From the NCBI GenBank assembly GCA_946406555.1, contig CAMJLB010000010.1, positions 1 through 40,523 of the forward strand: a stretch of DNA of 40,523 bases. Reading direction: 5' to 3'. This document shows positions 24,359 to 26,188 of the stretch, piece by piece. Both the position numbers and the translations under genes were made by a program. The DNA comes from an uncultured Prevotellaceae bacterium. GTDB lineage: Bacteria; Bacteroidota; Bacteroidia; Bacteroidales; Bacteroidaceae. The notes under the pieces are model-generated. The model did no database searches. It worked only from the letters and a program-made list of their open reading frames with translations, and was not told the DNA's origin. Position 1 is the stretch's first letter. Each line of letters opens with the position of its first letter.

Positions 24359-26188
24359 TCACTTGAGGAGTAGGCGGGCGGTGCCGTCGGCACGCCGTTC
24401 AATGACAACTCCGGCCCGTGCGTTGACCCTCCTGCGTCCGCTTAAATCGTAATAGGTGCGTGAGGCGTCGCGTCCATACCTGTTGTAGGCAATGCCGGTG
24501 ATGGCATCGGGGGCGTGCATCACCACGGGATAGCGCAGCGAACCTTGCAGGAACTGTCCGCCTGCGCGCAGCGTCTCGCTGACCTCGGCCAACTGTCCTG
24601 TGGGCAGGTAGCAGAGGCGGAAGCTCACCCGTTCGCCAGCATCGCAGTGCACGGTGATGAAGAATCGGCCGCGAATGCATTTGCCCACGCCTCGGCACTC
24701 GTCGCCAATGAAGGCACCCAGGGCATAGTCCTGCGCATCGCTCAGCTCGGCTATGCGCAGCACCACCGACATGTTTTCGCGGAAGCGGTGGGCAACGAGG
24801 GGGGAGTAGGGGAATGACTCTCCCCCCAGCGACTCCCTGTAGGGAGGGGAGTATATAGTTCTTTCGTTGGGATATTCATTTGCAGAGGTGATTACTCCTC
24901 TCCCTGCAGGGAGGGGCTGGGGGGTAAGGCCAATGGGGCTTATATGACTAATGGGACCCATGGGGCTGTTGAAACTCAATTCCGCCACCGTATCCTTCTC
25001 GCAATAGAGCAGGTAGCACTGGCCTACGGCGAGCCGTTCAAGCGTGCCCACCCACTCGGTTCCGTCCCATTCGGCTATGCCGTCTTCCTTCGACACGATG
25101 AACAGGCCCTCGAAGAGTCTGGCAGGGTCGAACACCTGTGTCAGTGGCACGTCCCAGTAGTAGGGCGAGGGCATCCACTGCCAGCCTTCCTGTAATGCGA
25201 TGGTGTGGCTGTCGGTATAGGTGCCCTGCCACAGCCGACTGTCGTGGTCGGCGGCCATGAAAGCCATGTAGGCGGTGTTCTGCGGCAGCCCCGTCTCGCA
25301 GAGGGTGCCGAAATAGCCGTAGACGGGGTCGTTGTAGAGCAGGGCGTGCTGCGTGCGCAGCTCGGTGAGGGCGTTGCCGCCATAGACGCTGAAGAACTGT
25401 TCGGGGGCCACGTTGCCGTAGTAGTTGGTGAGCCACTGCCACCCCTCATGCAGCCGCAATGGCGCACCCACCTCGAAGGTGCTGAACGGCTCGGTGCTGC
25501 CAGTACGGTAGAGGGGCGTGCTGCCTACGCTGAGCGTATAGGTCTGGGGCACTTGCGAGCAGAGCGTATAGGTGAGGGGCACCAGCGAGGTGCGCTCGCA
25601 CGTGATGGCATCGGTCCATGCGGGGAAGGAGATGCCGATGAGCTGCACATGTAGGGCAGCGGGGTTGAAGGTGGCATTGGCAGGAACGGGGGTAAGGCGC
25701 AGCTGGCCTGCCTCTCCGGCCACCATCGAGTCGACGCTCACTTCGAAGCCCTGCAGTTCAACCGGCGCAACTGCGCTGTTGAAAGTGAGCAGCACGGGGC
25801 TGGAAGGCACCCCTTCGCTCTCGCCTGTGAATGTGACGGGCCTTGAGGGGGTGCATACATAGGTGGCCTGTGTCGATTTGTGACAGACAAGGAAGTCCAT
25901 CGTGCGTCCTGCATCGGCGGCATGGTCGCCAAAGACGCGCAGCACATAGTAGGGCAATCCATCGGGGCCGGTCTCGAAGTGGGTGGCTTCGCCGCGGCAC
26001 TCCCCGCCGATGAAGGCCCCCACCATCCACTCGTCGGTGGCGACAGCCTGACCGTTGGTCTGGTCGACAAGTCGGGCATAGACCATCGTCTCATCGTCGA
26101 ACATCCGGCGGTCTGCAACCGTCCAACCCTGCGACCATGCGGATAGTGCAGTTGCAAAAAATGCCAATAATATGGTCAGCTTGCGCAT
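24359..26188 (-). CDS. Exported surface protein with T9SS-tail-like C-terminus (paralog of the 1003-aa protein), with an in-frame family-2 insert
   Basis: Probable start MRKLTILLAFFATALSAWSQ (signal peptide) at 26188. C-terminus YYDLSGRRRVNARAGVVIERRADGTARLLLK. Confidence 0.8.
   Translation of the reverse strand: MRKLTILLAFFATALSAWSQGWTVADRRMFDDETMVYARLVDQTNGQAVATDEWMVGAFIGGECRGEATHFETGPDGLPYYVLRVFGDHAADAGRTMDFLVCHKSTQATYVCTPSRPVTFTGESEGVPSSPVLLTFNSAVAPVELQGFEVSVDSMVAGEAGQLRLTPVPANATFNPAALHVQLIGISFPAWTDAITCERTSLVPLTYTLCSQVPQTYTLSVGSTPLYRTGSTEPFSTFEVGAPLRLHEGWQWLTNYYGNVAPEQFFSVYGGNALTELRTQHALLYNDPVYGYFGTLCETGLPQNTAYMAFMAADHDSRLWQGTYTDSHTIALQEGWQWMPSPYYWDVPLTQVFDPARLFEGLFIVSKEDGIAEWDGTEWVGTLERLAVGQCYLLYCEKDTVAELSFNSPMGPISHISPIGLTPQPLPAGRGVITSANEYPNERTIYSPPYRESLGGESFPYSPLVAHRFRENMSVVLRIAELSDAQDYALGAFIGDECRGVGKCIRGRFFITVHCDAGERVSFRLCYLPTGQLAEVSETLRAGGQFLQGSLRYPVVMHAPDAITGIAYNRYGRDASRTYYDLSGRRRVNARAGVVIERRADGTARLLLK
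24815..24930. repeat. Family-2 inverted pair inside a coding sequence
   Basis: tgactctccccccagcgactccctgtagggaggggagtatata ... attactcctctccctgcagggaggggctggggggtaag. Arms are imperfect inverted repeats; peptide LTPQPLPAGRGVITSANEYPNERTIYSPPYRESLGGESF. Confidence 0.85.

Follow-up and report, generated by a model that had tools for sequence, protein, structure and literature searches.

An in-frame hairpin doublet in a secreted protein of an uncultured Prevotellaceae bacterium, probably the short form of a hairpin-ended mobile element encoding a DUF559 nuclease

The DNA analysed here, a stretch of 40,523 nucleotides (the window; contig CAMJLB010000010.1) from the metagenome-assembled genome (MAG) of an uncultured Prevotellaceae bacterium, contains two neighbouring paralogous genes, one of which carries a mirrored pair of GC-rich hairpins in its reading frame at 24815-24931. 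A first reading of the letters without database searches (the sequence-only reading) had assigned a protein of 631 residues to this host gene. That is the length of the open reading frame (ORF) counted from an upstream TTG, but a gene of 609 residues starting at the ATG at 26188 is the likelier one, and its product would have an N-terminal signal peptide. The hairpins lie in the linker preceding a C-terminal RFxxNM...GAFxGDECRG domain. No Pfam family was found above the cut-off in the host protein or in its 1003-residue paralog.

The hairpins had been described as a pair in the host frame at 24815-24930, and the sequence was as described. A repeat search placed two arms of 32 nt (24822-24853 and 24893-24924; 88% complementary, 39 nt apart), and both halves were placed with R1, a half-element model of repeat family 2 that was used to place whole halves (Table 1). 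The mirrored arrangement was retained, whereas the boundaries were revised: the halves, separated by a spacer of about 29 nt, form one element of 117 nt and not two separate hairpins. The host frame reads the element without a stop as about 39 residues, approximately GLTPQPLPAGRGVITSANEYPNERTIYSPPYRESLGGES. Inverted repeats of such quality were found twice in the 20-30 kb part of the window, compared to none in 12 Markov resamples. An Rfam search of positions 18800-26800 gave no match.

Four paralogs from the same genome (the 1003-residue neighbour, two ORFs on contig C51 and one on C163) aligned with the host protein on both sides of the segment and lacked it. The neighbour had been proposed as an internal control for insertion. 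Its alignment on both flanks is real, but taken alone it is a weak control because the linker varies in all of the paralogs. The strong control is a panel of 22 full-length homologs drawn from 5.8 billion proteins, 21 of which lack the segment, and the proposed in-frame insertion was supported by it. The sole carrier, P0241, is 98% identical and comprises 7 member sequences on 4 contigs from three sources. Two of the homologs without the segment, P0247 and P0249, have hairpin-type peptides of other kinds at this linker and also at a C-terminal linker, apparently as independent insertions. Loss instead of insertion, which orthologs of the 1003-residue protein with the segment would have indicated, is disfavoured by the panel; no homolog of 950-1030 residues matched the hairpin-peptide motif, in a search in which the 1003-residue protein itself was not a query. 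An ancestral segment lost from paralogs and homologs, or a low-complexity linker resembling the repeat by chance, would suit the position in a variable linker, but is highly improbable in view of the 21 homologs and four paralogs without the segment, the absence of deeply diverged homologs with the same segment at the same site, the failure of resampled DNA to yield a comparable inverted repeat, and the same segment in unrelated proteins. An assembly or binning artefact was judged more remote still. Repeats misassemble and the window is part of a MAG, but the same insert is present in P0241 from its three sources, and in-frame nuclease inserts of the kind described below also occur in isolates, such as Flavobacterium cucumis DSM 18830 and F. 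frigidimaris DSM 15937.

The insert peptide with 15 flanking residues was used as a query against 151 congeneric genomes. Matches were obtained in 25 of the genomes (44 in G097 and 33 in G084), many of them in one frame within long open frames. The peptide, of the 'PxPLPxGRG' type that the sequence-only reading had suggested searching for, was found, mostly in frame, in unrelated proteins, including an AAA-ATPase-like protein, RND pumps, RecG, LpxB and a GyrB/ParE-like subunit, all with a segment of about 38 residues reading approximately PTPQPLPxGRGVxTS....IYSPPSQGGAGGGS. In RecG the insert was a clean gap against a solved chain (query 170 to 208, chain 415 to 420), and the closest homologs of LpxB were either contiguous or had unrelated short linkers. 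In the genome of the window, an MFS sugar porter also has an in-frame family-2 element, which is missing from 38 of its 40 closest homologs, the other two having a homologous insert. Contigs C76 and C45 carry further in-frame copies, the former within an ATPase-like ORF and the latter within a sensor-kinase/AraC-like ORF. The repeat family, its mirrored architecture, its occurrence in frame in unrelated proteins and its absence from their homologs are established at the level of sequence. The Pro/Gly-rich peptide (LTPxPxPxGEG...GGAGGE) appears to be tolerated as a flexible linker, and the element is apparently not spliced out.

A genome-wide search for the family-2 consensus, also suggested by the sequence-only reading, was performed with an iterated profile and gave 63 half copies, about 16 of them arranged as mirrored doublets, mostly of 114-119 nt. 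The doublets have the layout AGCCTCACCCCCAGCCCCTCTCC..GGAGAGGGGAGT[GATT/ATAT]AG, spacer and mirror; this is the layout of REPINs, and family 2 is a REPIN-like genome-wide family. The short copies had 0-3 open frames out of six, about equal to mononucleotide shuffles. An evolution of the elements towards freedom from stops in every frame was not supported by these counts, and in-frame copies therefore look like survivors of selection. Selection acting on the host protein probably determines where the copies lie and in which frame.

The genome of the window has exactly two DUF559 genes, and each is located exactly between mirrored hairpins, the first of family 2 and the second of family 1 (Table 1). 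Within the genus, inverted hairpins flank 75 of 91 DUF559 loci, compared to 1 of 300 random intervals; family-2 halves were found at 28 of the 91 loci. Random intervals replaced a crossed-flank control, because high scores in the latter came from orthologous loci in opposite orientation. Similarity of the nucleases and similarity of their hairpins covaried over 1905 non-orthologous pairs (Spearman 0.27, 0 of 2000 permutations). Among the 151 genomes of the genus, the median number of half-hairpins per genome was 25 with DUF559 and 0 without it, counts near 41 being lower bounds (at least about 41). Ten or more copies were present in 57 of 80 genomes with DUF559 and in 13 of 71 without it (odds ratio 11, p=6e-11, uncorrected for phylogeny). 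No link to palindromes was found in open-access literature naming DUF559.

Mirrored hairpin doublets resemble REPINs, and the elements could be ordinary REPINs moved by RAYT (TnpA_REP, Y1_Tnp) transposases, which would have to bind and cut hairpins of the CCCCTCCC type. RAYT subclasses 2.4 and 2.6 are present in Bacteroidetes, subclass 2.4 with in-frame REPs in the transposase gene (PMC6006769), and the explanation was tested because such systems are known from this group. As read by eye, the foot of some family-1 hairpins has GTAG beside the stem, other copies having GAAG or ATAG, and family-2 halves end in GAGTATATAG-like tails with no GTAG or GTGG tag. A RAYT as the mobiliser was disfavoured in three ways. 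No Y1_Tnp (PF01797) was found in the genome of the window, a MAG that is 84.6% complete. Presence of Y1_Tnp did not predict hairpin abundance in the genus (odds ratio 1.3, p=0.5), where 18 hairpin-rich genomes with DUF559 have no Y1_Tnp. Finally, family-2 halves were found at 0 of 40 Y1_Tnp loci, the palindromes there being of another type. The RAYT explanation is thus very unlikely. RAYT and DUF559-hairpin systems coexist and appear to be separate. The RAYT (Y1_Tnp) genes at L248-L283, from the same genus, have a palindrome type of their own at their flanks (GCCCAGGGC..GCCCTGGG, GGCCTGAAAGGCC).

Of 201 DUF559 loci from the genus and the phylum, 63 had the domain embedded in a longer ORF, with 80 or more residues to either side. 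The borders of the inserts are usually hairpin peptides (..PPAPEGG[DUF559]PPSGAGG..). Judged by sequence motifs in the same ORF, the hosts included MetH (20 loci), LeuRS (13) and HsdR-like proteins (5), together with ValRS, MetRS, MazG, ABC-F, a DNA helicase (just after Walker A), DegT aminotransferases and NAD-epimerases. N-terminal fusions of DUF559 to guanylate kinase, IspF and an RNase H-like protein were frequent; the IspF at L048:892-1941 (-) has, besides such a fusion, a short in-frame hairpin peptide (GGIKIPF[RRPSQPGGEGGGC]WGLLGHSDADV). Compared to solved MetH, the insertion in MetH amounts to 142 residues, and the solved MetH and LeuRS chains are contiguous at the insert position. In one MetH (L174:3-2459, +), DUF559 is present in frame twice, at separate positions, the two copies sharing about 85% identity; this is best read as a recent in-frame transposition. 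As regards inteins, Pfam searches of the inserts of L054, L057 and L151 gave DUF559 and no protein-splicing (Hint) domain, and the short copies have just about 39 residues. The nuclease between hairpins, its in-frame presence in essential enzymes and its association with the hairpins in similarity and copy number can be read directly from the genomes.

The insertion sites in MetH and LeuS are occupied in different species, and the nuclease sequences cluster according to insertion site, even across classes (7 label changes compared to at least 29 in shuffles), a pattern that either homing or old vertical inheritance would be expected to give. For MetH, divergence of host and nuclease gave a Spearman coefficient of 0.36 over 136 pairs, a value that does not separate homing from vertical inheritance. 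A MetH and a LeuRS with Bacteroidota-type DUF559 inserts (L183 and L180) are on contigs labelled Candidatus Nitrotoga and Paceibacterota, due to either binning contamination or transfer between phyla.

The predicted model of DUF559 matches 3hrl, a DUF559-like protein, with 40% identity, and also the catalytic domain of I-Bth0305I (3r3p, E=9e-5) and Vsr (1vsr). Its fold is of the EDxHD/Vsr-like type with conserved acidic and His residues. E31, D59, E70, D72 and H76 were invariant across 18 DUF559 proteins, and the invariant residues of DUF559 include acidic, His and Arg residues. Such conservation is consistent with, and suggests, an active nuclease. DUF559 has been ascribed to the EDxHD homing endonucleases (PMC9403480), and in Caulobacter it has also been ascribed to Vsr-like repair.

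The element at 24815-24931 is probably a non-autonomous version of a mobile element with hairpin ends. In its autonomous form, this mobile element would have the gene for an EDxHD/Vsr-like DUF559 nuclease between the same two mirrored hairpins. Mobility would be due to this nuclease. By cutting DNA at the hairpins, close to them or at the target, the nuclease could drive spread, either through break-induced copying that resembles homing or through excision of the hairpin form as single-stranded DNA. Repair would copy or paste the hairpin-ended element, short copies would be moved in trans, and selection would retain those copies that keep the frame and fall in a loop, a linker or the end of a gene. 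Several observations weigh against this explanation. The association between DUF559 and hairpins ignores phylogeny, and 13 hairpin-rich genomes have no strong DUF559 match, 11 of them being MAGs less than 90% complete and two (G033 and G145) about 97% complete. Outside the genus, 61 of 110 loci passed the inverted-repeat threshold, in a set that overlaps Prevotella. Vertical inheritance could also account for the grouping of nucleases by insertion site. No target-site duplication was evident among the short copies of the genome of the window, and no recent pair of empty and filled sites gave base resolution, the empty site seen, in a comparison of L037 with L046, being at about 80% identity only.

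Alternatively, DUF559 could be a passenger (a cargo or defence gene) in an element similar to a miniature inverted-repeat transposable element (MITE), with some other transposase acting in trans. The 13 genomes mentioned above fit a passenger, genes of insertion sequences (IS) are easily lost from MAGs, and an action of DUF559 on the hairpins rests on inference. However, no other gene class was found between the hairpins at the loci examined, nuclease and hairpins covary, and the conserved residues suggest an active enzyme with the fold of a homing endonuclease. A passenger role was for these reasons considered unlikely.

Each part of the proposed DUF559 element has a precedent. Rickettsia palindromic elements (RPE) are, according to the available parts of two reports, palindromic multi-copy repeats of about 100-150 bp found in frame in unrelated and presumably functional proteins (PMC10969869; PMC3733652), and the palindromic repeats described here are similar in length and placement. 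The likeness is one of description, and a dedicated enzyme is not mentioned in those parts of the reports, whereas the hairpins here bracket DUF559. REPIN/RAYT systems have mirrored doublets, dispersed short copies and, for each hairpin family, one gene with those hairpins on both sides (PMC6006769; PMC3116915). Mirrored hairpin pairs dispersed in the genome and a hairpin-flanked gene were found here as well, but the enzyme is of the PD-(D/E)XK/EDxHD type and not a Y1/HUH tyrosine enzyme. Among characterised nucleases, the fold closest to the predicted model is that of I-Bth0305I, and as with EDxHD homing endonucleases the same site of conserved genes is occupied in distant taxa. I-Bth0305I is intron-encoded; in contrast, the DUF559 elements involve neither an intron nor an intein, their nuclease remains part of the host protein, the ends are hairpins and there are non-coding short copies. 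The ShiLan domain, which includes a homing-type nuclease, is inserted without stops in a conserved phage methylase and has no detectable splicing domains (PMC11855218). It differs in having an HNH nuclease read out of frame, in having one phage host gene and no dispersed short copies, and no palindromes are found in that report. MITEs are likewise short, dispersed and non-autonomous with terminal inverted repeats, but here no target-site duplication was seen and no parent IS family was identified. No description of the combination of in-frame palindromes, hairpins with a dedicated enzyme, a homing nuclease and an unspliced insert was found in the open-access literature. The balance leans slightly towards a previously undescribed, Bacteroidota-wide class of mobile elements, hairpin-ended and encoding an EDxHD/DUF559 nuclease, which are inserted in frame in core proteins without splicing and have swarms of short, non-autonomous in-frame copies moved in trans. 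Host function would be kept, with the insert serving as a linker plus domain.

For two decades, the Rickettsia palindromic elements have remained a curiosity. The Bacteroidota elements resemble them yet bring a candidate enzyme in the same cassette and in culturable species, which makes the spread of in-frame palindromes directly testable. The proposed explanation, if true, would give a function to many genes annotated as DUF559 alone and would explain the recurring 'LTPxPSPxGEG / GGAGGE' peptides of Bacteroidota proteins. Pro/Gly-rich segments and nuclease domains would then be steadily added to MetH, LeuRS, RecG and LpxB, and the inserts would show, as a natural catalogue, which sites of essential enzymes tolerate insertion.

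Table 1. Features of the window and DUF559 cassettes elsewhere in the same genome (C120, C123)
Feature	Position	Strand	Remarks
Short family-2 element, in frame, probably non-autonomous	24815..24931	.	117 nt, two mirrored hairpin halves
Left half, outer to inner	24815..24858	+	R1 match 24.8 bits, E=1.7e-4, outside training set
Right half, mirror copy	24888..24931	-	R1 match 35 bits, half included in training set
Host gene, likely secreted protein of 609 aa	24362..26188	-	ORF of 631 aa counted from upstream TTG
1003-aa paralog without insert	21181..24189	-	Alignment to host protein
Family-2 pair	19043..19255	.	Halves 19043-19085 (+) and 19212-19255 (-); R1
Family-2 pair, between genes near 3' end of 1003-aa gene	21006..21174	.	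Halves 21006-21049 (+) and 21130-21174 (-)
Family-2 pair, intergenic	26382..26485	.	Repeat search and R1
Family-1 palindromes (GCCCCCGAGGGGGC type)	30202..30327	.	In frame in AMP-binding (acyl-CoA synthetase-like) ORF 29743-31512
Family-1 pair	3549..3669	.	In frame inside 335-aa ORF 2811-3818
First DUF559 cassette	C123:6797-7314		Stretched family-2 doublet, gene between its halves
Second DUF559 gene	C120:358-675		Between mirrored family-1 (GCCCCCGAGGGGGC) copies; placed between two subunit genes of one oxidoreductase

In the family-2 pair nearest to the start of the window, the half at 19043-19085 is in frame in the N-terminal signal region of a 4340-residue ORF (..FYILPSIQGGVGGGSALFAQEV..), and its mirror is located just upstream of the ORF. 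Other repeats were observed as well. Repeated TTTTGTTCTTTTGTTATTATGTCT units occupy positions 24203-24364 between both paralog genes, and a 22-bp tandem repeat, CCGTTAGCCTGCAATACAGTAT, is present at 29546-29660 downstream of an AraC-type sensor gene. Genome-wide, other abundant repeat words in G000 were AATTCAGCCTGTTTT with about 50 copies, GTAGGGGCAGGCCCC with about 40 and TTTTTCGATTTTCAAGACA with about 38.
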